From Chitinophaga pinensis (GTDB taxonomy: Bacteria > Bacteroidota > Bacteroidia > NS11-12g > UBA9320), in the NCBI GenBank assembly GCA_945907065.1, contig CAMDSC010000001.1:161190-225189 (forward strand): a stretch of 64,000 nucleotides of DNA, written 5' to 3'. Shown piece after piece: positions 46,130 to 61,349 of the stretch (position 1 is its first letter; every line of letters starts with the position of its first letter). A program made the translations under genes and the position numbers. Below the pieces are notes generated by a model, which saw nothing but the letters and a program-made list of their open reading frames with translations, made no database searches and was not told the origin of the DNA.

Positions 46130-46538
46130 ATGAAAATGCAAAATGTTTCATTTCAAAATGTGGATGAGTTTCTTGATTTTCTGTCGGAGGAAGAGTTGAA
46201 AATTGTTACGGTTTTTGCGAATCCTTGTTTTAGATTGTTTACCCAATTGCAAAGAAAAACTATCTTTTAATGTTCCCTTTTATTTCCTTAACAAAAGCGT
46301 TTGTTTTATTTGGCCGGCCTCCGTTACATGGGGTAAAAAGGAAACGTATAAAGGAGTACGAATCGGTTTTGCTAAAGGCTATTTACTAAGTGATGAAATG
46401 GGTTATTTAGAAAAAGGAAACCGCAAGCAAGTTTATTGGCGCGATATTGAACGCCTCGAAGAATCGGATATTGAACTTCTAAAATCGTATCTTTTTGAAA
46501 CAGCCATGCTCGACGAACAGGAGAATATTAAAAAATAA
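46130..46538 (+). pseudogene. DUF1801 family gene with a one-base frameshift
   Basis: ATG at 46130 (or 46136) opens MQNVSFQNVDEFLDFLSEEELKIVTV, which then runs to a stop at 46269. The rest of the domain continues in the next frame from the T run at 46212-46216. Removing one T yields ...TVLRILVLDCLPNCKEKLSFNVPFYFLNKSVCFIWPASVTWGK..., which fits DUF1801 from end to end (about 135 residues). It may be a real pseudogene or an error in a homopolymer. DUF1801 proteins are small cytoplasmic proteins of unknown function. Only two bases separate its stop from the sulfatase gene of the opposite strand. Confidence 0.85.
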
Positions 46539-46570
46539 AATCATTCCTTTATAACCTTTATAAAATGATT
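46539..46570. terminator. AT-rich hairpin between convergent operons
   Basis: AATCATT plus TTATAA pair with TTATAA plus AATGATT around CCT, with a three-base bulge. It overlaps the end of the sulfatase coding region. A weak candidate for stopping both convergent transcripts. Confidence 0.35.
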
Positions 46571-48121
46571 AGCTTCACCTAGTATTTCTAAATAGTAGAT
46601 TCCTTTTGTTAAATTAGAAAAATCTTGATTTTCAATTTTGTATCCTTTAAAAATTAATTGCCCATAGCAATTTATCATTCTATATTCTTGGTTCATTTGA
46701 TTTGAAATAACCTTAATATAATTGGCAAATGGATTGGGAATTACATAAAACATTGACCGGCTATTTAAATTTGATACTCCAAAGGTTGAACAAAATCTAT
46801 TAATCCCTACCAAGGTTGTCATTTCACCACACAAATAATTGTAGTTGGTTTGATCCGTTGAACTTAATGTTCCAGATAGCAAGTCGTTATTCTCAGTAGG
46901 GTCTTTCGTGAGATTAAAAAACTTTTGAGTTCCATTATCAAAGTCGATTAATTTGTAATCCTTGTTTCGCATTGCCTTGCCATCGCCTGCAACGGTGGGT
47001 ATTTTAAATACTTCAGTAAAAACCCAAGGTCGAATATCTGATGTCTTATTCTTAAGTATGGGTAAAATGCTTTTACTGTCTAAAGGTTTATTCCCGGGTA
47101 TTTGGGATTGCCAGCTGCTGTATCCGAACAATTCTAAAATTGTGGCAAATAGATCATGGGTATTAACCAAAGCATCATTGGTTCTTCCGGGTGCAATTAA
47201 CGATGGTCCTGATATTATAAATGGCACACTCACACCTTCCTGATAAACGCTTCCTTTGGCTCCACCAGTATTTTGAGCAACCTGTGGATCATCACCATTA
47301 TCCCCAATAAAAATAATATCGGTACTGTCCCATTTATTTAATCGTTTCAATGAATCAAATACTCTTCCGATTTCATGGTCCAGCGCTTCCATAGCTGCTT
47401 TAAAATATGGTTTTGGATTGGCGGTAATATCCGCATCAAGTCCAGTCAGTGTTGTATCCGAATGCAGCGATTTAGGCGGCAAATGAAAAGGGACATGTGG
47501 TGCATTAAATGCCAGCCATAAAAAGAAAGGCTTGTTTTGGGCTTTTATCCATCTAACCGCATTATCGGCTGTTTCTGTGGTTGCATAATTTGTATTGTTG
47601 GTGGCTACACCGTTGGTAACCTTTGTCCAACTGTAGTAACTTTTTACCACTCCTGTAAAATTACCTTCATAATGGTCGTAGCCCATTTTGTTCGGAAAAA
47701 TATAATTAGAAGTAGGTGTAGGCAATTGTAAATGCCACTTTCCAATATTGGCTTTGGCAATTCCGTTTGGTTTAAATTTGTTTAACAATATGGGAATAGT
47801 CATTTCAGCTGTATCCAGAACAGCCGAAGTAGCTCCACCAACTGCATTTCCAACTCCTGTTCTAAAACTGTATCGGCCTGTTAGTATTCCAGCTCGGGTA
47901 GGGGAGCAGAGCGGGTTAGACCATGCTTTATTAAAACGGACACCAGAGCTTAATAATCTTCTGATATTTGGCATGCCGATGGTATCCAAATGGTTTTCAT
48001 AAAATCCGCAATAGTCTTTACCTAAATCATCAGCTATAATCAGAATGACATTTCTTTGAGCCGAGACCAGATAGGAAGTAACAGAAAAAAGAACTAAAAT
48101 TAGTATTTTTTTGAAAATCAC
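46541..48121 (-). CDS. Secreted T9SS sulfatase (first paralogue, standard CxPxR motif)
   Basis: 526 residues. Signal peptide to SAQ (22), metal-site start ILIIADDLG, and the formylglycine motif NPLCSPTRAGILTGRY with the catalytic Cys at residue 72 in a normal C-x-P-x-R. The alkaline-phosphatase fold metal region FIGDNGDD is at about residue 272. The last 80 residues are a T9SS sorting domain (YVIPNPFANYIKV...). It would remove a sulfate ester from an outside substrate; no target is visible. GTG start overlapping the upstream stop (GTGA). Last gene of the operon; paralogue of 54802-56385. Confidence 0.92.
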   Translation of the reverse strand: MIFKKILILVLFSVTSYLVSAQRNVILIIADDLGKDYCGFYENHLDTIGMPNIRRLLSSGVRFNKAWSNPLCSPTRAGILTGRYSFRTGVGNAVGGATSAVLDTAEMTIPILLNKFKPNGIAKANIGKWHLQLPTPTSNYIFPNKMGYDHYEGNFTGVVKSYYSWTKVTNGVATNNTNYATTETADNAVRWIKAQNKPFFLWLAFNAPHVPFHLPPKSLHSDTTLTGLDADITANPKPYFKAAMEALDHEIGRVFDSLKRLNKWDSTDIIFIGDNGDDPQVAQNTGGAKGSVYQEGVSVPFIISGPSLIAPGRTNDALVNTHDLFATILELFGYSSWQSQIPGNKPLDSKSILPILKNKTSDIRPWVFTEVFKIPTVAGDGKAMRNKDYKLIDFDNGTQKFFNLTKDPTENNDLLSGTLSSTDQTNYNYLCGEMTTLVGINRFCSTFGVSNLNSRSMFYVIPNPFANYIKVISNQMNQEYRMINCYGQLIFKGYKIENQDFSNLTKGIYYLEILGEANHFIKVIKE

Positions 48122-49338
48122 TTTTGTATTGAAAATTTATATGTGAATGATGTGTTGTTATCTTTTACCGTTAAAAAATACAATCCATTGGTAAGCGCTT
48201 CTGTATTAAAATGAAATTGATTATTGTTTAATACAGGTTCTTTAATATAAACAGTTTGCCCTAAATTATTAAATAGTCTAAATTGTAATTGATCGGAGTT
48301 CTCAACTTCTGATGAAAGATAGAAGCCCGTAGTTGCAGGATTAGGAAAAATATATGCAGATTTAACTTTTTTAGCAGTTTTTCCTATACCGCCGATTATC
48401 TGATTGCCCCCTCTTACACAAATAAAATAATTGGTGTTTGTTTTATCATCATAGGTTGTTATTCCAAATTGGGTTGATAAATACCAAGCCTTTGAAGTTA
48501 GATTTGGCAAGGAAGTAGATGACCAGTATTTATTTGGAAGAATCGTCGTAAAAAATAAATTATCAATTGAAGGACTACCTATTTTGTAATCACTAAGAGA
48601 TTGTAATTCTTTAATATTTGGTAATCGCCAGTCGGTTTTCCCGGCAATTGAAAGATTCTCAGCATAAATTAAAGCTTGTTCCCAGACATTGGAGTTAGGA
48701 TTGGGTATCTGCTCCCAAATTAAACCTGTAAGATGATCGGTAACAGTACCATCACCATTTTTAGTCAATCTGCTTTGAACCAAAGATGGAAACGTAACAT
48801 CCCTAACCGCTCTTACATGAAATTTCTTAGTTCCACCTGCACTTATTGTCTCGGTTTTGGGGTGGTTGCCAATACCACCACCGGCATTGATTACCCAAAT
48901 TCGGGTAGCATCATTGTATTGCTTATCTCCCGTCCACCAGTATTCAGATAAGGTTTTGGTAAAAACTGTTGTATTTAGGGCCGGGCCATTATTTTGGTGA
49001 TTTAATATACTGAATGACTCATGTGCATCGGGTAATCGCCAGTTGGTATAACCACCCAGGGTAAGTGAATCGCAATAGATAACGGCGTTTTCAATTGTCA
49101 TTTCACCCCCGTCAGTTTGCTGCCACATCAATCCTGTTATGGTGTCGGTTACGGTTCCGTTGCCATTGTTTTTAAAAAAAGGCGCATTTATGGTGTAGTC
49201 ATTGTCTTCGCCAAAAGTTGCTGTATAACTTGTATTTTGTCCGGTATCAGGAAGACGCTTCATGGTTTTGGTAACGCTTTGACTATGTGACAGATAAGTT
49301 GAAATTAAGAAAATAAGTGTTAAAATAGAATTCTTCAT
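48118..49338 (-). CDS. T9SS protein with two DUF1566/Lcl C-terminal domains
   Basis: 406 residues. Signal peptide (to about 20), then two DUF1566 repeats beginning GTVTDTITGLMWQQTD and GTVTDHLTGLIWEQIP, each with the WRLPD/WRLPN motif and a final RAVRD/CVRGG. A T9SS sorting domain ends the chain (YIFPNPATTGFYL...). DUF1566 (Lcl_C) has a C-type-lectin-like fold; Legionella Lcl binds sulfated glycosaminoglycans (family knowledge). ATG overlaps nothing upstream (13-base gap), and its stop overlaps the sulfatase start by four bases. Confidence 0.88.
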   Translation of the reverse strand: MKNSILTLIFLISTYLSHSQSVTKTMKRLPDTGQNTSYTATFGEDNDYTINAPFFKNNGNGTVTDTITGLMWQQTDGGEMTIENAVIYCDSLTLGGYTNWRLPDAHESFSILNHQNNGPALNTTVFTKTLSEYWWTGDKQYNDATRIWVINAGGGIGNHPKTETISAGGTKKFHVRAVRDVTFPSLVQSRLTKNGDGTVTDHLTGLIWEQIPNPNSNVWEQALIYAENLSIAGKTDWRLPNIKELQSLSDYKIGSPSIDNLFFTTILPNKYWSSTSLPNLTSKAWYLSTQFGITTYDDKTNTNYFICVRGGNQIIGGIGKTAKKVKSAYIFPNPATTGFYLSSEVENSDQLQFRLFNNLGQTVYIKEPVLNNNQFHFNTEALTNGLYFLTVKDNNTSFTYKFSIQK

Positions 49339-49351
49339 GATTTTATTCCGA

Positions 49352-50584
49352 TTATTCGATAATTAATTTCTGTATTACTTGATCATTACCGCTCATGATT
49401 TTAATAAAATAAACTCCGGAAGGTATCAAAGGAAGTTCTATTTTTTCATTAAAATCATCTGATACATAAACATTTTCACCGATTCCATTTAAAATTCTGA
49501 TTTTGTAATTTTTATTATTTGACAAACCTTCTATACCTTGAATTAGGAAACTATTTTTTGCCGGGTTAGGATAAATCCGAATTTTCAAATCCGGCAATTT
49601 ATTGTTGAAAATTGAAACGGGACTTGCAACCGTATACCTCACAATCACCTCATTATCTAAAATAACATTGGAGCTCCAGATAAATTCGGCATCGTTGGAA
49701 GCATCGTCAAAAATACCTTTAAAATAGGTATAAGTTGGTTTATTGTCAACGCCAATTGTTGTATTGGTATACGTAGATGCTGATGGCCAAGACGAATCAT
49801 CAAACGATGTACTCATCCATTTGACTGGCCGGCTCCAGTGCAACCCGTAATATTTACTTCCGTCATTTGAGTTTTGGGTACTACAATTGTTCGACAACCG
49901 TGAAGTGCCGGACTCTGTTGGACAGGTTAAATCTGTTAAAGGTGAAGTGTAAAAAGTTTGAGCCTTCCATTTATTACCTGTGGATGCAACTATTTTGTTG
50001 GAGGCATCTTTAAAAACTGCTACCATACCCCCGTCGCCTGGATGGTAAGCGAAACCACCGTTTAATTCTGAACCGAGTCCCAGATTTTCTTCCCAATCCA
50101 CCAAAAGCATGGCGATGGTAAATGGTCTTTTTACTTTAAAGCGTACAATGCTTGAGTTGAATTGAGTGAAAGGAACTCTATCTTTTCCAACAGCTGTCCC
50201 GTTAATGTACATTTCAAAGTAATTATCTGCAAAAACATATGCTGTAATTACTTCTCCATCGGCATCAACTGTAACAATATCAGAACCGTTTAAGGCCGCC
50301 AAAGCAGAGGCGACAGTGGTGTAGTTGTTTCCATTACAAACGTTGTTTAGATCAGAAGAAAACGGAAAAGAGGTGTTTGTGAAATTAACAATTGCTGGAA
50401 CTATCCAACTAGAATTATCTGTGGCTTTTATGGTCCCGATACCCGATAAACGGCCTCCGCTGCATGAATACAGGTTAGTAACGGTGGTACTTGCAGGTCC
50501 CTGGGTAACCGAGCCTGTTCCTTTGTACTGAGCAAAAGAATTAATTGAAATAAACAGAGCTATCAGGTAAACGATTTTTTGCAT
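49352..50584 (-). CDS. T9SS-secreted beta-rich protein of unknown function
   Basis: 410 residues. Signal peptide (MQKIVYLIALFISINSFAQ), then a large beta-sandwich-like region (FADNYFEMYINGTAVGKDRVPFTQFNSSIVRFKVKRPFTIAMLLVDWEEN) that resembles carbohydrate-binding or PA14-like folds, and a T9SS sorting domain (RIYPNPAKNSFLIQG...KLIIE). Several Cys residues (CSGGRLSG, CNGNNY, CPTESG, NNCSTQ) suggest disulfides. No catalytic motif recognised. Nine bases after the YHYH protein gene. Confidence 0.75.
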   Translation of the reverse strand: MQKIVYLIALFISINSFAQYKGTGSVTQGPASTTVTNLYSCSGGRLSGIGTIKATDNSSWIVPAIVNFTNTSFPFSSDLNNVCNGNNYTTVASALAALNGSDIVTVDADGEVITAYVFADNYFEMYINGTAVGKDRVPFTQFNSSIVRFKVKRPFTIAMLLVDWEENLGLGSELNGGFAYHPGDGGMVAVFKDASNKIVASTGNKWKAQTFYTSPLTDLTCPTESGTSRLSNNCSTQNSNDGSKYYGLHWSRPVKWMSTSFDDSSWPSASTYTNTTIGVDNKPTYTYFKGIFDDASNDAEFIWSSNVILDNEVIVRYTVASPVSIFNNKLPDLKIRIYPNPAKNSFLIQGIEGLSNNKNYKIRILNGIGENVYVSDDFNEKIELPLIPSGVYFIKIMSGNDQVIQKLIIE

Positions 50585-50593
50585 TTTTTTTGA

Positions 50594-52216
50594 TTATTGA
50601 ATGCTAATTTTTTTAACAAACTGCTGTTTATATGCCTGAATTTTAACCAGATAAATGCCTCTTGAAAGATTCCTGATATCAATGTTTGGGACATATTGCC
50701 CGGCATGATAAACCATTTCGCCATTTAGGCTGTAAACAGAAATTTCCTGAATATCCTTTTCCAATATCTGTTTGGATAACTTTAAATTTAATACTTCCTT
50801 AACTGGATTTGGATAAATTGAAATTTCATTTTCCAGAAACACCAAATTGACCGATGCCGTAGAAACTTTACAAATCGTGGTTCCTGTATAATTAGTCGTT
50901 GTTTTTACCCCTGATACATAATAATTAAACGTAAAAAATCCTGCAGGCGTCCAGCTGTAAACCACCGAATCTGTTCCACCTGAAAGAGTGTAGGTCAGTT
51001 TATAACCATTCCCAGCTTTGTTTGGGATACAACTTGTAATAACGGCTCCTTTTAATGGGGTGCCGGCAGGACGGACCCCTTTGGCGGCAGCCTGAGGAAT
51101 TATTTGAAGGGTGGCATCTTCGGTAACCTGACCCACCATGTTTCCAATCATATAAGGTGCTGTTGGTGTTCCGTGATAATGGTAAACCCCGTTACTGCCA
51201 TCGTGCCCGTGATTGGCATCGAGTGTTTTCATGGCTGAACCATCAGGCTCAAGACTGCCGTAAACGGCATATCCGTCCAGTGCAAAGGCAATGGGTAAAA
51301 TATCTGCAGTTTTATCATCTAAAAATAAAGGCGCAATGTGATAATGGTAATCATCTGCACGGCCGCAGTGGCCTCCATAATTATCAAGCTGACCATCCAA
51401 CAGAGCATCTACACCGGTATTGGTGTAAGGATTGAAGATGGCTACCCCATTGGCAGCAATGGCAACCGCACCGCGCAAAAAATGTTGGGCATTTACGGGG
51501 ACCGGCGTTGCGGCTTTCACCGGATTTAAGGGAATACTCCAGGCATTGGAACCAATATAACACTGAGGAATGGGAAACTGTTGCTGCCATCCTGTTATTC
51601 CTGACATCATTAAATGTTCGGGGATGCCAAGGGACTCAGCATAAAAATAGGTATTGTCCCAACGGGTATTGACATTGGGTTTGAAGGGTGAAAATGCTGA
51701 ATTAACAAATGCAGGATCAGTGGTTGTGCCTAAAACGCCAATGACTTTGGTGGTGAAACTGTAAAGTGACAGTAAAATCGTAACCAAAAAAATCGGAGCT
51801 AAATATTGAATCTTTTGTTTCTGTGCAATCTTAAAAATATAAAATCCGGACAATATCAGGAGAGCTAAAAATACGAAGAATTTAATATCAAATATGCTTA
51901 GAACACAAACCTTTGGTTTTGCCCGTTCTGCTATTTGATGGTTTAATTTTTCAATCCGGGCATATTTAGCCAAAACAAACGCCTGATCTTCTTTTGTGAA
52001 AGCTGTTAAAGGATAGTTAATGATTTTGTCATGATCGGTTTCAATGTAAACATTCCCATTTTTATACATAAAAAAAGAACCTTCGAAAGTCTTCGACTCC
52101 CTCGCAAGCGTCCAGTGTTTTTGATTGGAATAGTCATAATGGCTGTCATGGGCAAACAATAAATTGCCCATCAGGCAAATCATGAGTAGGAAACTGTATT
52201 TTTTTATTTTGTTCAT
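50594..52216 (-). CDS. YHYH protein with SHD1-like domain, two membrane helices and T9SS tail
   Basis: 540 residues. Signal peptide (about 1-22), an N-terminal SHD1-like stretch (HWTLARESKTFEGSFF...NYPLTAFTKEDQAFV, about 34-90), then two hydrophobic helices (about 108-130 and 138-157). A YHYH domain follows (about 185-400; HCGRADDYHYHIAP, GVYHYHGTPTAPYMIG, FALDGYAVYG). The C-terminus is a T9SS sorting domain (ISIYPNPVKEVLNL). YHYH domains are His-rich and uncharacterised; metal binding is plausible. Two internal helices in a T9SS substrate are odd, see findings. Confidence 0.85.
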   Translation of the reverse strand: MNKIKKYSFLLMICLMGNLLFAHDSHYDYSNQKHWTLARESKTFEGSFFMYKNGNVYIETDHDKIINYPLTAFTKEDQAFVLAKYARIEKLNHQIAERAKPKVCVLSIFDIKFFVFLALLILSGFYIFKIAQKQKIQYLAPIFLVTILLSLYSFTTKVIGVLGTTTDPAFVNSAFSPFKPNVNTRWDNTYFYAESLGIPEHLMMSGITGWQQQFPIPQCYIGSNAWSIPLNPVKAATPVPVNAQHFLRGAVAIAANGVAIFNPYTNTGVDALLDGQLDNYGGHCGRADDYHYHIAPLFLDDKTADILPIAFALDGYAVYGSLEPDGSAMKTLDANHGHDGSNGVYHYHGTPTAPYMIGNMVGQVTEDATLQIIPQAAAKGVRPAGTPLKGAVITSCIPNKAGNGYKLTYTLSGGTDSVVYSWTPAGFFTFNYYVSGVKTTTNYTGTTICKVSTASVNLVFLENEISIYPNPVKEVLNLKLSKQILEKDIQEISVYSLNGEMVYHAGQYVPNIDIRNLSRGIYLVKIQAYKQQFVKKISIQ

Positions 52217-52307
52217 GTTTTTTCGAAAACTTTCACCTACATATTAATATAATTGTTTTGAAGAATAGACATAACAAATTTCTTATTTATTCGCAGATTT
52301 AAAATTT

Positions 52308-52919
52308 TTATTTTCTAAAGTGTATTTGACATCCGATGGATTTAGTCTCTTTTATTTCAACTTCCTTCTCATTTAAGAGTTGGTCAAGAGCCCTTGAAAT
52401 GTAATTGTTTTCAACCTTTTCGGGTTCAGCACCATTATCGTCGATTGCCCCCTTGTATTTGATTTTCCATATTCCTTTTTCTTTCCAAATCACATAGGCA
52501 TGGGGCGTTTTTTGTGCATTGAAATTTTTGGCAACTAATTGTTGTGAATCATATAAATAAGGGAAGTTAAAAGATTCATTATTTGATTTTTCAACCATTT
52601 TGATATAAGTATCTTCTTCATAGGCAATGGTGTCTGTAGAACTGATGGCTAGAAGCGGAATTCCCATTTTTTTATATTTTAAATTTAATTCATTTAATCT
52701 GGCTGGGTATAGCTTAGCAAAAGGGCAATGATTGCAGGTAAAAATAATAATGAATCCTTTGGCATCGGGATAATCGCTTAGTGAAACATAGCTTCCATCC
52801 ACATTTTTTAGTTTAAAATCTATTACATTATCACTATCCCTGAATGTAAAATTAACAAGTGTGAAACCTAAGATGGCTAGGATCAGGCCGGTTTGAATTT
52901 TAAAAATGCTGTGTTTCAG
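52308..52919 (-). CDS. Membrane-anchored thioredoxin-fold redoxin, CTG start
   Basis: 203 residues if it starts at CTG (52917-52919). This sits as CTGA over the stop of the upstream thioredoxin gene, the same geometry as the ATGA and GTGA overlaps elsewhere in the operon. The N-terminal part LKHSIFKIQTGLILAILGFTLVNFTF forms a signal/anchor. The redoxin domain has FTCNHCPFAKLYPARL as the CxxC-containing active site. The GTG at 52802 (VDGSYVS) would drop the anchor. No ATG/GTG/TTG exists earlier in frame. Probably periplasmic; AhpC/TSA-type. Could reduce thiols or serve in metal delivery. Confidence 0.75.
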   Translation of the reverse strand: MKHSIFKIQTGLILAILGFTLVNFTFRDSDNVIDFKLKNVDGSYVSLSDYPDAKGFIIIFTCNHCPFAKLYPARLNELNLKYKKMGIPLLAISSTDTIAYEEDTYIKMVEKSNNESFNFPYLYDSQQLVAKNFNAQKTPHAYVIWKEKGIWKIKYKGAIDDNGAEPEKVENNYISRALDQLLNEKEVEIKETKSIGCQIHFRK

Positions 52920-53398
52920 TTTGCAAATTTCTTTAATAAGCTATAGGAAAGGGATTCTGTGGTAAACCTTCGGTTATCAGAAGCCTTATGAAGTATCAGA
53001 GTGGCCGGAATTACACCACTCCAGGTATTATCAATTTTGTCTATCCATTCATTGGCGTCCGGTTCATCCAATAAATAAACCGTTTGATTGATATTTAAAT
53101 TCTGAACCATTGGTAACAAACTCTCAGACATGTTTTTTTTAAAATCCAGACTTACAAAAATCACCCTAACTTTTTTGTTCTTATTTTCATCAGCATATTT
53201 CAAAAATTCCGGGATTTCCTTAATGCAGGGTGCACACCACGATGCAAAGAAATTAACAACATACACGGTATCAGGATTTGATGTAATCCTTTGCTGTAAT
53301 GTCTCAAATTTAATTATTGAAATATTTTGAGAAAAAGCAACATTATGAAATAAAAGGAATACGGCAAATATTTTCAATTTCATAGTCTTTTTATGCAT
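52916..53398 (-). CDS. TlpA-like thioredoxin
   Basis: 160 residues. Signal peptide (MKLKIFAVFLLFHNVAFSQ, ATG at 53383 or 53398) and the thioredoxin core with WCAPC in FFASWCAPCIKEIPEF (about 53), then ATLIL near the cis-Pro (GVIPATLIL). TlpA-type proteins reduce disulfides in the periplasm, often for cytochrome c or copper centres. Its neighbours include a diheme protein and a multicopper oxidase, which fits such a role. Overlaps the redoxin by four bases. Confidence 0.88.
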   Translation of the reverse strand: MHKKTMKLKIFAVFLLFHNVAFSQNISIIKFETLQQRITSNPDTVYVVNFFASWCAPCIKEIPEFLKYADENKNKKVRVIFVSLDFKKNMSESLLPMVQNLNINQTVYLLDEPDANEWIDKIDNTWSGVIPATLILHKASDNRRFTTESLSYSLLKKFAN

Positions 53399-53429
53399 TG
53401 TTTATTATCAAATATGCACGAAAGTTAAC

Positions 53430-54800
53430 TTATTTATAAACTTCAACCTTCTTAGTTATCGAACCTTTATAGTTAGAAATTTTAATTATATATTCTCCAC
53501 TATATATTGTTTTGGTATCGAAGTAAACGATGGTACTTCCCTGGTTTATGACAGCATTTTGAATCATTCGTCCATTTAAATCATACAGGGATACCGTTGT
53601 ATTTTCTCTTGACAAACCATTCATTTGTACCGCAATCAAATCACTGCTCGGATTTGGGAAAACAGAAATTTGATTGTCCTCAAGTTTCTGAATAGCCACT
53701 GCAGGTGCATAGGTTTGAACCGTTTCGGTAATGCTTGTTACTTTAGAGGCAGTTTTTGTTCCATAAAAAGTAGGACCTACGATGTATGGGTAAGCCGAGT
53801 TCCAATTTTTATCAACGGTGGCGTAATAACAATAAATACCATCAGGATATTCCGGGGTTTTACAAAAACGTCCGTTGTGTTCATCTAAATAATCGGGTGT
53901 GGTTGGCGAAGTGGTATTGTACTGATAATCCTCCCTAAAATAACCTAATTTATAGGTAGCATCAACATCAGGCCCTGCCGTTACGGTAGTTCCGGTATAA
54001 TATGTTGTCCGAGTTGTAATATTTCTTAGGCTATAACTGGATTTCATTCGTGTAATTCCGCCGGTACCATCTGTATTTTTATAGGCATATGCTCCGTAAA
54101 TAGGAAATCCATCATAGGCAAATCCTATTAAAGGTGAATGCTTGGTGCTGTCAATTACATACAATCCATCGGCATCGTATAAATTGCAAACAGTAGATAT
54201 TACAGTTAAATCCAATTTAAAGGCACTTGGATTCTGGTGGTGATGATAATTGCCCATAGCAGGATCTACTTTGGAACCAGCAGGATGTCCTTTGGAACAA
54301 TCAAAGCCTAACTTTTCACCAACCACTGCATCGCGGTTCCAAACGCCATCGCCAATTCCGCCTAAAGGACCGCCTTTTAAAGAACTTGAACTGTTTTGCC
54401 ACGAAACCCCGTCGCGGTAATCAAACAAGGCCACGCCATTAATAAAAATACCAATATTTCCACCGGTGGTGGCTGTAAATGCTCCCGGATTTTTAACAGG
54501 TTTTAATGATATTTTAAAAATTGCATTTTGGGCGCTAGCCAATGAAGGATTGTTGTCCAAAAAAGGTCCGGTAACATAAGCAGGAATACCCTGGGTGCTT
54601 ATGTAAACCCAATCTGCAGAATATTTAACATTTTGAACATTTGCTAAAGTGGCATCGGTAATTGCTGTGGAATTGCCCTTTACATAATGTCTTCCTGTTA
54701 TGTTTGTGGTGTTTTGAAGCCAATTCAGAATAGCCGGATTGGTTTGTGCATTTGAGGCAATGCTTATAAAAAGCAAGCTGAAGGCCATTAATTTTTTCAT
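53430..54800 (-). CDS. YHYH protein with T9SS sorting domain
   Basis: 456 residues. Signal peptide (MKKLMAFSLLFISIASNAQ), a YHYH domain with the variant core GNYHHHQNPSAFK (about 188), LIGFAYDGFPIYGAYAYKN and YYATVDKNWNSAYPYIVGP, then a linker and a T9SS sorting domain (ISVFPNPSSDLIAVQM). Unlike the 540-residue relative it lacks internal helices, so secretion is straightforward. The DEHNGRFCKTPEYPDGIYCYY segment has two Cys. One base follows the sulfatase stop. Confidence 0.85.
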   Translation of the reverse strand: MKKLMAFSLLFISIASNAQTNPAILNWLQNTTNITGRHYVKGNSTAITDATLANVQNVKYSADWVYISTQGIPAYVTGPFLDNNPSLASAQNAIFKISLKPVKNPGAFTATTGGNIGIFINGVALFDYRDGVSWQNSSSSLKGGPLGGIGDGVWNRDAVVGEKLGFDCSKGHPAGSKVDPAMGNYHHHQNPSAFKLDLTVISTVCNLYDADGLYVIDSTKHSPLIGFAYDGFPIYGAYAYKNTDGTGGITRMKSSYSLRNITTRTTYYTGTTVTAGPDVDATYKLGYFREDYQYNTTSPTTPDYLDEHNGRFCKTPEYPDGIYCYYATVDKNWNSAYPYIVGPTFYGTKTASKVTSITETVQTYAPAVAIQKLEDNQISVFPNPSSDLIAVQMNGLSRENTTVSLYDLNGRMIQNAVINQGSTIVYFDTKTIYSGEYIIKISNYKGSITKKVEVYK

Positions 54801-54801
54801 A

Positions 54802-56385
54802 TTATTCTTTTAATAATTTTATGGTTTGATTTTTTTTATTTGAAATTTTAAGGAAATAAATCCCATTTGGCAAGTTTGAGAAATTTTGAAGTTCTATGTT
54901 TTTTCCGGTAAATAGAATTTGCCCAACACAATCGGTAAGCTCATAAATTTCCCGATCCGTAAAGGATTCACTGCGAATATAGGAATGGAAAGGATTAGGA
55001 TAAATATCTGATTTCTGATCTACAATATTTTTTATGTCGGATGAACTGTTACAGAAGGATCCCTTGCCAATCAATTTTGTCATTTCACTGCACAAATAAT
55101 TGAAATTGGTCTGTTCTATTGAAGATAAATTTCCTTTTAACAAATCATTTAATTCATCGGGGTCAGTATTTAAGTTATAGAATTCTTCTTTACCATAATC
55201 CAATTTGATGAGTTTAAATTCCTTGTTTCGCATGGCTTTTCCATCTGTTGAATCCGGTGTTAATTTAAAATTTTCACAAAATTGCCAAGGACGTATTTCT
55301 GTGCTCGTGTTTTTTAAAATGGGAAAAATACTTTTGCTGTCCACCGGCTTGTTTGATGGTATTAGCGTCGGCCATGACTTGTCCCCAAATAAATCCAGAA
55401 CGGTTGCAAAAATATCCGTGGTATTTATTAAAGCATCACTTTTTCTTCCCGGATTTACGACCGAAGGCCCGGCAATGATAAATGGAACGTGAACGCCATA
55501 TTGGTAAACCGTTCCTTTGGCTTTTGCTGTATTTGTAATTTGAGCTGTCTGAATGGTATTGCCATTGTCCCCTATAAAAATAAAATCAGTGCTGTCATAG
55601 CGGTTCATCTTTTTTAATGAGTCGTAAAATCTTCCAATTTCATGATCCAATGCCTGAAGCATAGCTTTGAAATACGACTTGGGGTTTTTCGAAATATCTA
55701 GTGTTGTTCCACTTAAGGTGGTATAAGAATGCAGATTGGCAGGCGGTAAATGATAGGGAGCATGTGGTGCATTAAAAGCCAACCACAAAAAAAATGGTTT
55801 TGAATTTTGTTGCTTTAACCAACTTACCGCATTATTTACATTTTCAGTGGTGGCATAGGTGGTTACATTACTTGAAACCCCATTGGTATATTTAGTCCAG
55901 TTTGTAAAACTTGGAAGTTGACCAATAAAAGGGCCTTCAAAATGATCGTAACCCATTTTATTGGGATTTAATAAGTTAGATGCCGGAGTTGCTTGATGCA
56001 AATGCCATTTGCCAATATTTGCTTTTGCAATATTTGTATTAAATTTTTTAAGTAATCGAGGAATGGTTATTTCTGAAGTATCCAATTGATTGGAACCTCC
56101 TGCTCCTCCTACAATACCTCCAACGCCTGTTCTAAAACTATACCTGCCTGTTAAAATTCCTGAGCGGGTGGATGAACAAACCGGATTGGACATGGCATTG
56201 CTAAACCGAACTCCTTTTTTTAGCAATGCTCTGATATTCGGGACATCCACAGTATCCTTATAATCTTCGTAACAACCTAAATAATCAGTTCCTAAATCAT
56301 CCGCAATGATCAATACGACATTCCTTTGAGAATAGGAATAATAAGATAAAACAATTGTAAAAATGCTTAGGACCAGTTTTCTCAT
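54802..56385 (-). CDS. Secreted T9SS sulfatase (second paralogue, atypical CSSTR motif)
   Basis: 527 residues with signal peptide (to SQ 20), VLIIADDLGTDYLG, and NPVCSSTRSGILTGRY: the Cys (about 70) and Arg are kept but the motif proline is Ser. The rest closely tracks the paralogue at 46541-48121 (FIGDNGN, WHLHQATPASN, PWQFCENFK), ending in a T9SS domain (DIYPNPFHSYIRSESF). Activity depends on formylglycine at Cys; the changed motif may need a different maturation enzyme. ATG overlaps the oxidase stop by four bases. Confidence 0.9.
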   Translation of the reverse strand: MRKLVLSIFTIVLSYYSYSQRNVVLIIADDLGTDYLGCYEDYKDTVDVPNIRALLKKGVRFSNAMSNPVCSSTRSGILTGRYSFRTGVGGIVGGAGGSNQLDTSEITIPRLLKKFNTNIAKANIGKWHLHQATPASNLLNPNKMGYDHFEGPFIGQLPSFTNWTKYTNGVSSNVTTYATTENVNNAVSWLKQQNSKPFFLWLAFNAPHAPYHLPPANLHSYTTLSGTTLDISKNPKSYFKAMLQALDHEIGRFYDSLKKMNRYDSTDFIFIGDNGNTIQTAQITNTAKAKGTVYQYGVHVPFIIAGPSVVNPGRKSDALINTTDIFATVLDLFGDKSWPTLIPSNKPVDSKSIFPILKNTSTEIRPWQFCENFKLTPDSTDGKAMRNKEFKLIKLDYGKEEFYNLNTDPDELNDLLKGNLSSIEQTNFNYLCSEMTKLIGKGSFCNSSSDIKNIVDQKSDIYPNPFHSYIRSESFTDREIYELTDCVGQILFTGKNIELQNFSNLPNGIYFLKISNKKNQTIKLLKE

Positions 56386-58127
56386 TCTTTAATAAATTTC
56401 TTTGTAGTCATTATTTTTGTTTCATCTTGTGTTATTTGCAATGTATATATTCCGGAAGCCAATCCTGAAATATCAATTCCTTTTTCCAATTCAGGTTTTG
56501 GCAACATTAATACGGTTTTTCCAAGAGCGTTTACGATTCTTATATAATAGACCTTTGAATTCGATTGGTCATAGGCTACAAATAATTTGGTGTTCGCAGG
56601 ATTTGGAAAAATATTTATTTGAGGGTCAGATTTTTGCAGTGAGTTGAATGAACCTGCAGGACTTGTCACTAAAAACTGTCCCATCATGCCTTCATCTTCA
56701 TGCAATGAAATATGGCAATGGAACATAAATGGGTGTGAGGCATCTGCATAGTCATCAAATTTTGCAATGAATCTTACAACAGATGCGGTGGTTCCTGTTT
56801 TACCCGGAATAAAAACCACATCTTTCCATCCTGCTTGGGCAGCCGCAGGAGCCGCACCCTTGACCGACAAAATATTAAACTCCACATCATGGATATGAAA
56901 AGGATGGCCGAAAACGGAGTTGCTGGTAATTTCCCAAATTTCGGTATTGTTCAAGGCAATATTGTAATCGGTAACATTTAGCTTAAATAGTTTGTGGTTA
57001 ATCACAAATGCATTGGGACCAAGAATGACCGGGACTTTAACGCCTGCACTGTCACTGATGGTCACTTTTCTTGTAATAACAGCATCTGCTGAATTAAGTG
57101 GTTTATTAATAGTCAGCATTACAGGTACAGTTGTAATTGGTGAAACGGTAATTGCTCCAATTTTTAAATGCAAAATATTAAAATCTTTTTTACCCAGGGC
57201 ATTGGCAAAAGGGCCGTTGACAAAGGCCTCGCCTCCGGCAACAAAATTACCCAAGGTGGAATTGTAGGCTTTTAAATCCAGTGAAGTGCCCGATTGTGAA
57301 ACGCAATTGACTAAAATTTCAATGCGTTCGCCTGCATGTAATAAATATCTTGTCACAGAAACCGGAGCATTTAAAAGTCCACCATCGGAAGTTATGATAT
57401 GAAAGGTCCTGTTATCACTGAAACCAAGGTTATAAGAACGTTCAATTGCGGCATTCAAAATTCTGAATCGCACAACCTGTGCGGGAATAGAGAACTCAGG
57501 ACGAAGCGTTCCGTTTACCATCATGGTATCGCCATAAGGCACTGCCACAAATTGATTGGATGTGTTAAAATCACGGTCTGTTAATACCAATGGAATATCA
57601 TCCACGCCATATTTTCTTGGCAAGGCCAAAGCAGATTCTATGCTGTCTCTCACAATAATCAACCCTCCAATTCCCTTGGTAATTTGGTCCATAGTCATTT
57701 CATGTAAATGTGGATGGTACCAATAGGTAGCGGCGTTGTTGGTCACTTTCCAGTAAGGTTGCCAAAGAGTACCGGGAGGAATCACCTGGTGTGGACCTCC
57801 ATCCATAACTGCAGGCAAGTGCATGCCGTGCCAGTGAAGTGTCGTGGAATCATTCAGGTTATTTTTAACATTCATATGCACCACATCTCCTTTTTTAATA
57901 AATAAGGTCGGACCCCAAAATTTACCATTGATGCCCCCCGTAATGGTTTGGTTACCCTTGCTCACGATTTGGGCGAAGGTATCTTTGATATTCAGGTTAA
58001 AATTATTCCCCGAAAGCGTGTCGGGTATCCAAAGTGTGTTGTATTGTGCCTTACTTTGACCTCTTGACAATAAAATAAGAAGGATGGAAAAAAACAGAAG
58101 AAAAATTCGTTGCTTTGTTTTATGCAT
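56382..58127 (-). CDS. T9SS-exported multicopper oxidase
   Basis: 581 residues, signal peptide to about 28, three cupredoxin domains. All copper motifs are intact: HWHG (about 98), WYHPHLH (about 136), HPFHIH (about 408) and HCHISLHEDEGMM (about 470), the last giving the type 1 Cys and the possible axial Met. A T9SS sorting domain ends the chain (NIFPNPANTKLFVAY). Such oxidases can oxidise Cu(I), Mn or phenols; CueO/CotA-like. In this operon Cu(I) detoxification or use is the likely role. 36 bases separate it from the diheme protein. Confidence 0.92.
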   Translation of the reverse strand: MHKTKQRIFLLFFSILLILLSRGQSKAQYNTLWIPDTLSGNNFNLNIKDTFAQIVSKGNQTITGGINGKFWGPTLFIKKGDVVHMNVKNNLNDSTTLHWHGMHLPAVMDGGPHQVIPPGTLWQPYWKVTNNAATYWYHPHLHEMTMDQITKGIGGLIIVRDSIESALALPRKYGVDDIPLVLTDRDFNTSNQFVAVPYGDTMMVNGTLRPEFSIPAQVVRFRILNAAIERSYNLGFSDNRTFHIITSDGGLLNAPVSVTRYLLHAGERIEILVNCVSQSGTSLDLKAYNSTLGNFVAGGEAFVNGPFANALGKKDFNILHLKIGAITVSPITTVPVMLTINKPLNSADAVITRKVTISDSAGVKVPVILGPNAFVINHKLFKLNVTDYNIALNNTEIWEITSNSVFGHPFHIHDVEFNILSVKGAAPAAAQAGWKDVVFIPGKTGTTASVVRFIAKFDDYADASHPFMFHCHISLHEDEGMMGQFLVTSPAGSFNSLQKSDPQINIFPNPANTKLFVAYDQSNSKVYYIRIVNALGKTVLMLPKPELEKGIDISGLASGIYTLQITQDETKIMTTKKFIKE

Positions 58128-58163
58128 ATATATTTGATCTTATAGTTTGACGATTTTAAAATT

Positions 58164-59201
58164 TCAATCCTTCGGTAAAGATAGAAGAATATTTTTGGGA
58201 TAGCCGAATTCGGTATTAAATAAGAACTTTTTATCACTTAAGGTTAGCAAAAAGCTAATCAAATCTATCTTTTCATTGGCCGATAAAACAATGGGTTGCT
58301 CCAATTGCAAAGCCAAAGTTTTACTTTTTACAATGCCTGTGGTGTAATGATCCAATACCGCATTCAAATTTTTAAATCGGCCGTCGTGCATGTAGGGATA
58401 TGAAAATTCAATATTTCGAAGCGTAGGCACTTTGAATTTTAAAGAGTCATTTGGGTTTTGGGTAACCTTCATTCTTCCAAAATCTTTTAATTCCAAATCT
58501 AGGGGCAAACCGTTATTTTCAAATTTCTGATTGGTAAACAACGGTTCAGTATGACAGGAAGCACAGTTTTGCTTATAAAGTTTATATCCATTTTTCTCTT
58601 GCCTTGTAAATACTGATTCTTTTCGCTTTAAACTGTCGTATTTTGAATTGGCACTCACCAGAGTTAGCATAAATTGAGAAATTGCTTTTAACAGGTGTTC
58701 ACCTGATGCAATGCTGTCGCCAAATGCTTTAAAAAAAAGATGATGATATATTTTAGATTGATTGAGTTTATAAATTACGTGTTCAATGCTTTCGCCCATC
58801 TCATCGGGATGGCTTATCGGCGCGAGTGCCTGCATATCCAAATGGTTTATGGCGCCATCCCACATAAAGGTTTTGTTCCATGCCAAATTAATCAGCACCG
58901 GTGCATTTCGTGTTCCAATTCGGTCATAAATTCCATGGCTTAAAGCATGATCGACATGAGCAAATGCGGTAAATTGGGAATGGCAACTTGAACAAGAAAT
59001 GGTATTGTTTTGGGATAAAATCGGGTCATAAAACAGGGCTCTTCCTAAATCTATTTTGTCTTTTGTTAAAGGGTTTTTTGAAAAATTGTAGTTCGGCTTC
59101 GGCCAATTTAGAGGAATATTAAAAAGTCCATCTTTGCTAGTAACAAATGCTGAGACGCATATAAATAATAAGCAAACCGAAACATTCCTCCTCCAATTCA
59201 T
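58164..59201 (-). CDS. MbnH-like diheme cytochrome c peroxidase/MauG family protein
   Basis: 345 residues, signal peptide (about 1-22), two heme c sites CSSCH (70-74) and CASCH (213-217), HPDEMG (about 131) and VPTLRNIEFSYPYMHDGRF (about 260). The family contains bacterial cytochrome c peroxidases, MauG and MbnH. The neighbour encodes an MbnP-like protein, and in the known pair MbnH oxidises a Trp of MbnP to kynurenine to make the copper site. This is why MbnH is favoured. Overlaps the MbnP gene by four bases. Confidence 0.92.
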   Translation of the reverse strand: MNWRRNVSVCLLFICVSAFVTSKDGLFNIPLNWPKPNYNFSKNPLTKDKIDLGRALFYDPILSQNNTISCSSCHSQFTAFAHVDHALSHGIYDRIGTRNAPVLINLAWNKTFMWDGAINHLDMQALAPISHPDEMGESIEHVIYKLNQSKIYHHLFFKAFGDSIASGEHLLKAISQFMLTLVSANSKYDSLKRKESVFTRQEKNGYKLYKQNCASCHTEPLFTNQKFENNGLPLDLELKDFGRMKVTQNPNDSLKFKVPTLRNIEFSYPYMHDGRFKNLNAVLDHYTTGIVKSKTLALQLEQPIVLSANEKIDLISFLLTLSDKKFLFNTEFGYPKNILLSLPKD

Positions 59202-59896
59202 TCTTTAATTTTAAAGAGTTTACCCAGTTGATTAGATAATATTAATGCATCCTTATTGGGTGACATAACAGAAGGCTTATTCTCTAAGTCCACATCGCTT
59301 AAAAACGTTTTTAGGTCAAATTTAATGCTCACATCTTGGAGATTGGAAGTCAACAGCGAGATGGTTTGTAATGAGTTGTAAGGATGAGTATAACCTCCCA
59401 AATGAAATTGAAACTCATGTTTTCTCGATCGACAAAGATTGCTTTTTCCTTCCAGTTTAAAATTTACGTACCCACTTTGCCATGTCCAATACATGCCTTT
59501 TATGGGGTCTAAATCGCCCCCTATGGCACCTGAAACATTGGTTAAACTGTCGATACCGAGTTTAAATTTTATCTCAGCGTATATCATATCGGAAGGAACT
59601 TTAAAGGCCAATTTTAAGGTGTTGCTGTCCGATGCATCCATTAAATGAAAGCTGTTTGGTTCTATCCAAACCGGTGCTGAATTATTCCAAAACTCTATTG
59701 CGGAAACATAAAATTTCAAGGTTTCAAATTGAATGCTGTCGATCTTATTCAGTTTATAAACGGAGTCATTCAATTGCAGAACGGAATTGCCGAACATCGG
59801 TTTAAAATTCAAGGATAGTATTCGGAAGTTTTGAGCAAGAAGTTGATTACTGTAAAATGATAAAACTATTGGAAAGAAGGCTAAGCGCTTCTTCAT
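59198..59896 (-). CDS. MbnP-like periplasmic copper-binding protein
   Basis: 232 residues, signal peptide to about 22. The family pattern is LNFKPMFGNSVLQLND near the N-terminus, ETLKFYVSAIEFW, FHLMDASDSNTLKL, and GGDLDPIKGMYWTWQSGYVNFKLEG with W137 and W139, one of which may be the Trp converted to kynurenine. FQFHLGGYTHPY (about 165) supplies His residues. Probably exported to the periplasm or outer membrane for copper binding. Start is ATG overlapping the sensor protein stop by four bases. Confidence 0.88.
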   Translation of the reverse strand: MKKRLAFFPIVLSFYSNQLLAQNFRILSLNFKPMFGNSVLQLNDSVYKLNKIDSIQFETLKFYVSAIEFWNNSAPVWIEPNSFHLMDASDSNTLKLAFKVPSDMIYAEIKFKLGIDSLTNVSGAIGGDLDPIKGMYWTWQSGYVNFKLEGKSNLCRSRKHEFQFHLGGYTHPYNSLQTISLLTSNLQDVSIKFDLKTFLSDVDLENKPSVMSPNKDALILSNQLGKLFKIKE

Positions 59897-60351
59897 CTTG
59901 GGTTTATAGTTCGAGGACGTCTTGAAAACAAAGAGGCCAACTCCTCTGTCAGTGCGTTGAATGCAGGTAGCTGATTTTCATTGCAAAGTTTCTTAACATC
60001 CTGGAAATGTTTGTAATGAATGGACTCTATTTTTATCTGACATTGTCCAATGGCATTAATGATGGAGTCTTTATAAAGATTATTTGAGTCCCGGGCAAGG
60101 CTTTCATAAAGTGTATTTTTTAAACCTTTGATTTCCAATTCAGTGTGTTGTATTTTCTTTCTATGACCATCTATTAATACGTCATATTTTTCAATCTGAC
60201 CTTTATCAAACTTCAGCCTTTCCAGAATTAGACTTCTTGGTCCATTAGGACCTCCATGTATTGGTTTTTGTAAAACAATAAAACCGATTAAGAGTAAATT
60301 GGAAAGGAGTAATCCAATAGATAGAAGGCTTAAAATTTTTACTTTGCTCAT
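59893..60351 (-). CDS. Periplasmic heavy-metal-sensor-like protein (CnrX/Spy-type)
   Basis: 152 residues with one N-terminal helix (about 6-27) and an otherwise helical, charged periplasmic domain (GPRSLILERLKFDKGQIEKYDVLIDGHRKKI..., QCQIKIESIHYKHFQDVKKLCNENQ). It fits the Metal_resist/Spy-like group. His, Met and Cys are few but include HRKKIQH and IHYKHFQ. By its position next to the sigma and one-helix genes it is the likely sensor. Overlaps both neighbours by four bases. Confidence 0.78.
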   Translation of the reverse strand: MSKVKILSLLSIGLLLSNLLLIGFIVLQKPIHGGPNGPRSLILERLKFDKGQIEKYDVLIDGHRKKIQHTELEIKGLKNTLYESLARDSNNLYKDSIINAIGQCQIKIESIHYKHFQDVKKLCNENQLPAFNALTEELASLFSRRPRTINPR

Positions 60352-60623
60352 TTATATAATGAATTATCAGGCATTAAATTGAATGTATTAACCAAAGTAT
60401 TATCACTTCTAATTTGATGTATACGTTTGTTTATCACCATAAAATTTAATGCCAAAACTAAAATAAATGAAAGACCAATTGACCAGGTTAACTTTAATGA
60501 AAACCTTGAGGTGCAAGTATTCTCAATCTTTTGTTTAATGCGGGTAAATAAAAATGGCGGTGCATCTACTTTGTGTATTTGCCCTAACAGGTCCAAAGAT
60601 AATTTTTTGTTATTGCTGTTCAT
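60348..60623 (-). CDS. One-helix anti-sigma-like protein (CnrY-type)
   Basis: 91 residues. A cytoplasmic N-terminus (about 1-44; LLGQIHKVDAPPFLFTRIKQKIENT), one helix (about 45-63) and a short periplasmic tail. Its length and layout match CnrY, which binds the sigma factor in its N-terminal helix; the sequence itself shows no known anti-sigma motif. ATG start, 32 bases after the sigma gene, and its last bases overlap the sensor gene. Role inferred from context. Confidence 0.7.
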   Translation of the reverse strand: MNSNNKKLSLDLLGQIHKVDAPPFLFTRIKQKIENTCTSRFSLKLTWSIGLSFILVLALNFMVINKRIHQIRSDNTLVNTFNLMPDNSLYK

Positions 60624-60655
60624 TGTTTGTTATTATTAGTTTGACGCTAATTTTT

Positions 60656-61180
60656 TCAATTTCCTTCGTTGATGTTTATTTTTTTCTGTAAACTTGTTTT
60701 AGCACGCTGAATTAAAGATTCAACTGCTTTAACACTTAGGTCCATTATTTCAGCAATTTCTGCTTGTGTCTTTTGTTCTATTTTACTTAAAATAAGTGCC
60801 GTTTTTTGATTTTCAGATAATCGATTGATATGCTTAAATAATTGCTGCAACGCCTCTTTATTTTCAAGTTGCACCCCAGGATGATTAAATTCGGGTTTTT
60901 CATATTTTACTTCAATTGAATTTTCAGAAAAAAGAGAATAAAAAATACCAAACCTTTTTTTGCGTTGTCGGCTTTTAATAAAATCCAACGATTTATTAAT
61001 GGTTATTCTGTGAATCCAAGTGCTAACTTTAGATTGCTCCTTAAATGAATTTAACGATTTATTTACAGATACAAATACATCCTGTGTTATTTCTTCGGCA
61101 TCTTCACAATTTTGAACATATTGCAAGGCAAGGTTATAAACAAGATTCTTATTGGAATTGTATAAATCTTCAAATTTCAA
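60656..61180 (-). CDS. ECF RNA polymerase sigma factor
   Basis: 174 residues. Region 2 covers about 1-70 (YNLALQYVQNCEDAEEITQDVFVSVNKSL, VSTWIHRITINKSLDFIKSRQRKKR) and region 4 about 115-165 (RLSENQKTALILSKIEQKTQAEIAEIMDLSVKAVESLIQRAKTSLQKK). The start is TTG at 61180; an in-frame stop lies seven codons upstream and the only nearby ATG is out of frame. First gene of the 14-gene metal operon; likely drives it and itself. No sure promoter was found for it. Confidence 0.93.
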   Translation of the reverse strand: MKFEDLYNSNKNLVYNLALQYVQNCEDAEEITQDVFVSVNKSLNSFKEQSKVSTWIHRITINKSLDFIKSRQRKKRFGIFYSLFSENSIEVKYEKPEFNHPGVQLENKEALQQLFKHINRLSENQKTALILSKIEQKTQAEIAEIMDLSVKAVESLIQRAKTSLQKKININEGN

Positions 61181-61349
61181 TCTTGCATTTTTATTAAGCT
61201 ACGATATTAATACATTTCAAAGCCAATTTTAGTTTGAGAGCATACTACTAAAAAATAAATTAGATATTTTTTGATGTCATATTGAAGTCCATAATCAAGT
61301 GCTTGTAACACAAATTTTTGTACTTTCGTCTTTTATAAAAGGAGAAACG
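61181..61349. promoter_or_regulatory. Divergent control region of the metal operon and the BNR protein
   Basis: 169 bases. On the minus strand TGGCTTTG (61218-61225) is one base off TAnnTTTG, 37 bases before the sigma gene. On the plus strand TACTTTCG (61321-61328) is one base off, and a small palindrome ACAAA/TTTGT (61310-61321) overlaps it. None is a perfect match, which is what one expects if an alternative sigma factor reads this region. Confidence 0.4.
61337..61344 (+). promoter_or_regulatory. Shine-Dalgarno site AAAAGGAG
   Basis: AAAAGGAG lies five bases before the TTG at 61350. Such sites are scarce in this window, so it decides the TTG start of the large BNR protein. Confidence 0.65.

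Follow-up and report, generated by a model that had tools for sequence, protein, structure and literature searches.

In MbnP/MbnH chemistry, a diheme enzyme turns a Trp into kynurenine, and the kynurenine-containing copper sites described so far belong to a handful of methanotroph proteins. Reportedly, the first Trp of a WxW motif is the one that becomes kynurenine, and a His and a Met are said to contribute to the MbnP copper site. The structures 7l6g (MbnP) and 6e1c (MbnH) are those of the Methylosinus trichosporium OB3b proteins (Manesis et al. 2021, Kenney et al. 2019). In the methanotroph systems CorA/CorB and MopE/SACCP, a kynurenine-containing copper site is found beside a diheme peroxidase-like partner gene, and the copper ligands of CorA are H64, H114, water and Kyn62 (PMC3912023). 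The occurrence of MbnP/MbnH outside methanobactin operons was reported in 2013, in an article that describes the pair as conserved far beyond producers (PMC3621798). Because this has been in print since then, pairs outside methanobactin clusters are not in themselves new.

The window, a stretch of 64,000 nucleotides of Chitinophaga pinensis DNA, contains such a pair, and in these bacteria MbnP/MbnH is usually accompanied by a secreted YHYH protein. The reading that we favour, with modest confidence and on sequence comparisons, is that of a metal-regulated copper operon with MbnH-made kynurenine in MbnP and YHYH1 as a regular third component. The features of the locus are listed in Table 1.

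Table 1. Genes of the mbnP-mbnH locus in the window, in the order of transcription.
Feature	Position	Strand	Length	Basis or remark
ECF sigma factor	60656..61180	-		PF04542 and PF08281 over cut-off; TTG start as listed
One-membrane-segment protein, candidate anti-sigma factor	60348..60623	-	91 aa	lies between the genes for ECF and Spy; also kept at homologous loci
Spy/CpxP-like membrane-anchored protein, candidate periplasmic metal sensor	59893..60351	-	152 aa	Spy profile
MbnP-like protein	59198..59896	-	232 aa	PF20243, fold, residue conservation; Sec signal peptide, one Cys only
MbnH/MauG-type diheme enzyme	58164..59201	-	345 aa	PF03150, PDB profile, Tyr286, tree
Multicopper oxidase, optional unit member	56382..58127	-		PF07732, PF07731; T9SS tail
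Sulfatase-family protein, optional member	54802..56385	-		PF00884 153.5 bits; T9SS tail
YHYH1, full-length PF14240 protein	53430..54800	-	456 aa	PF14240 182 bits; type 9 secretion tail
Thioredoxin/TlpA-like protein	52916..53398	-		PF00578 34.8 bits
AhpC/TSA-family protein	52308..52802	-		PF00578 47.2 bits
YHYH2, second YHYH protein, partial PF14240 match	50594..52216	-		PF14240 58.3 bits; T9SS tail

By profile and predicted fold, the window MbnP is a member of PF20243 and of the MbnP fold. It scored 146.1 bits against PF20243 (Pfam gathering cut-off 27), a family present in 109/149 sampled genomes, and its AlphaFold2 model (mean pLDDT 89.5) had 7l6g as the sole confident Foldseek match in a PDB fold search (1.1e-8). 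Comparison with 7l6g_C gave a VIA Z of 18.0 with an rmsd of 2.7 over 206 aligned residues, and the next entry reached a Z of 4.5. Sequence identity to the solved MbnP was 14-16%. The PDB searches started from the window MbnP, from a profile of 21 relatives (only a chance match) and from another MbnP of the host genome did not retrieve 7l6g; a search from a proteobacterial MbnP did. The score against the NCBIfam MbnP equivalog TIGR04052 was 42.8 bits, under the curated cut-off of 140, and the four-Cys motif named in the molecule title of 7l6g is absent, with a single Cys in the whole protein. The lipobox, as a simple pattern, was matched by only 5/65 window-clade MbnPs. MbnP and MbnH are without type 9 tails, and both should be periplasmic.

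The motif MYWTWQSGY with W137 and W139, to which the initial annotation had drawn attention, is present at these residues within GMYWTWQSGY, which also includes M135. The overlapping next gene had been assigned there to the two-heme MauG/MbnH family, and this assignment held: its product carries two CxxCH motifs and scores 179 bits against PF03150 (CCP_MauG, cut-off 25.6), and the two genes share four bases (59198-59201). The same annotation had seen no methanobactin biosynthesis genes. In accord with this, the host genome (99.93% complete) had no match over the cut-off to PF05114, the MbnB family (best score, 12.2 bits), and this MbnB-family search supports a location of the pair outside any methanobactin cluster. 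PADLOC gave no match, and the repeats at 46400-61300 were weak, chance-like ones only, plus two sulfatase paralogues.

The neighbourhood of the pair was compared in the best 80 of 512 confirmed loci, which came from named genomes of Bacteroidota or near relatives (Ignavibacteria, Kapaibacterium) and had been retrieved by means of a WxW-containing pattern. A diheme ORF followed mbnP in 78/78 of those loci with at least 300 bases left (76 by script; the longer overlaps of L093 and L097 were recognised by eye), and the mbnP-mbnH gap was zero or negative in 66/76. No other gene of these best 80 of 512 was as recurrent as YHYH1: its linked cluster (70 YHYH1 and 10 multicopper-oxidase matches) occurred in 68/80 loci, followed by Spy (36) and ECF (33), and apart from these no gene was seen in more than 13/80. 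In 53 of the 67 loci with room (among the best 80 of 512), the YHYH1 gene started no more than 3.5 kb downstream; it lay elsewhere in the locus in 7/67 and was missing from 7/67.

Co-occurrence was examined in 149 class-wide genomes chosen without the WxW pattern, in which a diheme was counted from 350 bits against the window protein upwards and a full-length YHYH from 140 bits upwards. Full-length YHYH was present in 30/32 genomes with the window MbnH type vs 18/117 without it (Fisher 1e-16); one genome scored as YHYH-less, G220, has a 61-bit YHYH fragment adjoining its diheme. Within 14 mixed families the counts were 25/27 with the MbnH type and 6/28 without (permutation P 5e-6); the family table was compiled by hand, and genomes without a listed family were excluded. 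A YHYH match lay within 6 kb of 28/33 window-type dihemes (one of them partial), and within 3 kb of 27, vs 4/28 with a match nearby for dihemes of 271-350 bits. In four genomes the YHYH gene was upstream rather than downstream. Since its position is not fixed, the tie was either made more than once or survived a rearrangement.

YHYH1 is thus associated with MbnP/MbnH by direct count, and its role would be that of a metal protein. Its invariant residues among 54 sequences are H172, H186, H188, H221, H308, C168, C205 and W154. The structure model of YHYH1 was weak (mean pLDDT 72, residues 163-213 mostly below 50), and both PDB fold matches and sequence-profile matches covered the type 9 tail only. 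The host genome has just two YHYH genes, both within the window. In the open-access literature searched, we found neither YHYH in a relevant copper context, nor MbnP with Bacteroidetes, nor the wider unit with YHYH, parts of which may be mentioned in the 2019/2021 MbnP/MbnH neighbourhood analyses. As far as we searched, therefore, the MbnP/MbnH pair is known and the YHYH-linked unit (ECF, candidate anti-sigma, Spy-type, MbnP, MbnH, YHYH) is a new form of it. The initial annotation had placed the pair in a Bacteroidota operon; the pair itself stands, and the wider conserved unit, namely YHYH and the sigma/Spy module, was missing from that description.

The alternative that survives best, although we regard it as unlikely, is that YHYH1 is a passenger that shares a common sigma/Spy regulon and is unrelated to the MbnP copper site. 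It would account for the other-type YHYH proteins (which score about 200 bits against the window query) found without MbnP/MbnH, for the loci mentioned above from which YHYH1 is missing, and for two loci (L281:7477-11162 and L285:4273-11140) in which YHYH1 stands with regulator or accessory genes and MbnP/MbnH is not nearby. Against it stand the recurrence of YHYH1, unequalled by any other gene in the best 80 of 512 loci, and its upstream position in four genomes, which points to a repeated tie or to one that outlived a rearrangement. In the genomes of L281 and L285 the pair is on other contigs, and YHYH1 is accompanied either by the genes for ECF, the 91-aa protein and Spy or by those for a sulfatase, a multicopper oxidase, a thioredoxin and AhpC. 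The 18 genomes with YHYH and without the window MbnH type weigh against the favoured reading. Eight loci of the other YHYH type had no common neighbour gene by eye. On a Deinococcus plasmid (L307:7779-9855), a YHYH protein gene is followed by a gene of the HupE/UreJ family, which is metal-related.

Among the best 80 of 512 loci, 67 were scored for genes upstream of the pair, with Spy-like genes in 27, ECF sigma genes in 27 and the 91-aa protein in 21. A profile of 26 Spy-like homologues matched Spy 3oeo (E 2.8e-6), and PF13801 (Metal_resist) was found in 12/26 of these members, the window member itself being unmatched; H63, H115 and C123 are conserved in the Spy-like protein. The 91-aa protein had no Pfam match. 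Downstream, a multicopper oxidase was present within 6 kb in 8/56 loci and a sulfatase in 3/56 (both among the best 80 of 512). The best NCBIfam model for the window multicopper oxidase was CueO, at 376.1 bits under its cut-off of 525. Type 9 tails are carried by YHYH1, the multicopper oxidase, the sulfatase, YHYH2 and three more products further down, and these tails make copper chemistry on the cell surface likely. A second run of type-9-tailed proteins is encoded at 46541-52216 on the - strand, comprising a paralogue of the sulfatase in Table 1, a protein with an Lcl_C domain, a 410-aa protein in which no domain could be named and the second YHYH protein.

To assess the Trp and the copper ligands, 169 MbnPs were aligned together with 7 references, the window MbnP being represented by L036, a 99% identical orthologue. 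The sample was all MbnPs found in L034-L068, L149-L152 and L156-L275 (including four plasmid records). Of these, 142 had a diheme ORF no more than 1.5 kb away, 2 lay at contig edges, and the 25 unpaired MbnPs had no diheme gene despite at least 1.5 kb of downstream sequence in the fetched stretch. The first Trp of WxW was aligned in 142/142 paired MbnPs (140/142 in an earlier profile alignment) and in 126/126 paired representatives below 70% identity. The second Trp was present in 128/142 and replaced in 14; on the diheme tree, the partners of paired MbnPs that have lost it fall together in a single group (10 rows, support 96). The equivalent of M135 was kept in 129/142, that of H165 in 135/142 (absent from 7), and position 211 was occupied by Met in 63 MbnPs and by His in 62 (Met or His, 125/142). 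The protein 7l6g has M, W, W, H and M at window M135, W137, W139, H165 and M211, as do the MbnPs of Ideonella, Paracoccus, Methylocystis and Pseudoalteromonas; the Deinococcus MbnP has His at 211 and the Trichormus MbnP has Leu at 135. In a separate alignment, A2, the invariance of M135, W137 and W139 is by construction and uninformative because the loci were drawn with a pattern containing these residues; only H165 and M211 are free of the selection pattern.

The initial annotation had named the WTW as a candidate for kynurenine formation, and alignment with a known MbnP had been set beforehand as the comparison that could overturn it. The candidate Trp is present, both Trp align with 7l6g, and the proposal can be narrowed to one residue: since the first Trp aligns in 142/142 and the second is dispensable in a clade of paired MbnPs, W137 is the better candidate for the kynurenine site of the window MbnP, and W139 is dispensable. 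H165 and M211, the latter at the Met/His position, are likely to be copper ligands, and M135 would be a conserved neighbour of the proposed site. The idea that WxW occurs strictly near diheme genes was rejected, because 15/25 unpaired MbnPs keep WxW. The second Trp was commoner in paired (128/142) than in unpaired (15/25) MbnPs, with a Fisher value of 0.0005 that, the sequences being related, does not stand for independent events. The first Trp was found in 24/25 unpaired MbnPs, so that its conservation alone is no proof of W137 oxidation.

Those unpaired proteins bear on a second alternative, which we consider improbable, that window-clade MbnP binds metal without kynurenine and W137 is a structural residue. 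The first Trp is indeed kept in solo MbnPs that carry WGM or WQM and have no diheme gene nearby, as this alternative would have it. Nevertheless, the zero or negative mbnP-mbnH gaps in most of the best 80 of 512 loci and the full conservation of site residues in common with 7l6g speak against it, and dihemes encoded away from any MbnP in the host genome (L278 and L279) could act in trans on solo proteins. MbnPs in which WGM or WQM replaces WxW, and whose fetched stretch has no diheme gene, were seen at L035:9791-10552 (host contig C8), L054, L057, L059, L270, L272 and L273. L278 (C7:95204) and L279 (C3:75140) are two more MbnH-like dihemes with a distal Tyr; neither is near any of the host genome's three MbnP genes, and they could serve the solo MbnP.

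In the window diheme protein, the CxxCH motifs are at C70..H74 and C213..H217, W114 lies between the hemes and Y286 occupies the distal-ligand position. The NCBIfam MbnH equivalog TIGR04039 gave 212.6 bits, below its cut-off of 362.85 and yet the best of all NCBIfam models, and MauG TIGR03791 gave 182.5 bits, below its cut-off of 443.85. A PDB search with a profile of 40 relatives placed MbnH 6e1c on top (7.5e-51), nearly level with the peroxidase bCcP 1iqc (9.4e-51), so that the score by itself is not decisive and the residues decide. Every member of the window clade has Y286 (40/40), and five MbnH references, two MauG and the Deinococcus diheme have an aligned Tyr, whereas the same position was Met in 6/7 peroxidase-labelled sequences and His in the seventh (Sphingomonas). 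The diheme tree comprised 73 sequences, namely 14/40 window-clade rows and 32/107 WxW-paired rows (both random draws), 10/14 others and all references except OWN_L276, L277 and L280, and was a quick search with SH-aLRT support only. The window diheme fell within a 21-row set (99) nested in an MbnH-side group of 65 rows (94), apart from MauG and from five or six bCcPs (99 for five); the peroxidase-labelled Sphingomonas row fell inside the MbnH-side group.

The remaining alternative, that the diheme is an ordinary H2O2-reducing cytochrome c peroxidase with MbnP as its electron donor or scaffold and W137 unmodified, would suit the near-tie with 1iqc, the first rank of bCcPs in a single-sequence PDB search and the retained catalytic Glu (E134), but it is very improbable given a distal Tyr in place of Met throughout the window clade, the tree placement and the mbnP gene adjoining the diheme in all 78 judgeable loci of the best 80 of 512. 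By sequence the window diheme is to be placed among MbnP-partnered dihemes and not among classical peroxidases; a grouping with plain cytochrome c peroxidases, raised in the initial annotation as the other outcome, was seen neither at Tyr286 nor in the tree. In plasmid records, dihemes of the MbnH type go under the name 'methanobactin export MATE transporter MbnM' (L149:6777-7946, L150:6824-8095 and L151:5832-6983; two CxxCH motifs in each of the first two translations), and in Methylocystis parvus (L303:3902-5062) a gene is named mbnM and its product called hypothetical. The 'MbnM' label looks like a propagated naming error.

In the copper operon that we favour, judged from gene order and families, the Spy-like periplasmic sensor and the small membrane anti-sigma would release the ECF sigma, and transcription of the operon would follow. 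Oxidised MbnH would then draw electrons from MbnP and convert W137 of the WxW to kynurenine, by homology with the described pair, and mature MbnP would bind a single copper ion close to H165, M211 and Kyn137. YHYH1 would be exported by the type 9 system and is probably a surface metal protein that receives or uses the copper, with the window multicopper oxidase and sulfatases as optional additions. A bolder version, which we hold as doubtful, is a three-part Bacteroidota system in which the kynurenine that MbnH forms in MbnP would ready Cu(I) for secreted YHYH, the YHYH family being copper proteins and possibly enzymes, and the kynurenine site existing in a His/Met and a His/His form that are interchangeable. 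Should the pair work here, kynurenine copper sites would be common in Bacteroidota. The recurrent YHYH link offers a first testable function for the YHYH family.

Among known systems, the window shares with OB3b MbnP/MbnH the MbnP fold, the M-x-W-x-W motif, the aligned H and M and an adjacent diheme with a distal Tyr. It differs in having no methanobactin operon, in the extra YHYH, Spy and ECF genes, and in a shorter MbnP with one Cys where OB3b has the four-Cys layout. MauG of Paracoccus belongs to the same diheme superfamily and has the aligned distal Tyr; however, it forms a separate long branch, and the annotated window neighbours include no methylamine dehydrogenase genes. CnrYXH-type systems consist of a sigma factor, an anti-sigma factor and a metal sensor, and the window has an ECF sigma, a small membrane protein and a Spy-family membrane-anchored protein in a row, a likeness of layout and fold family only. 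With MopE/SACCP and CorA/CorB the locus has in common a diheme partner gene adjoining a putative kynurenine copper-site protein. In CorA, two His together with water and kynurenine hold the copper (PMC3912023), whereas the window MbnP would be His/Met; by analogy, the His/His form at 165/211 would resemble the CorA site, and the Met/His alternation at 211 predicts which MbnPs are OB3b MbnP-like and which are MopE/CorA-like.
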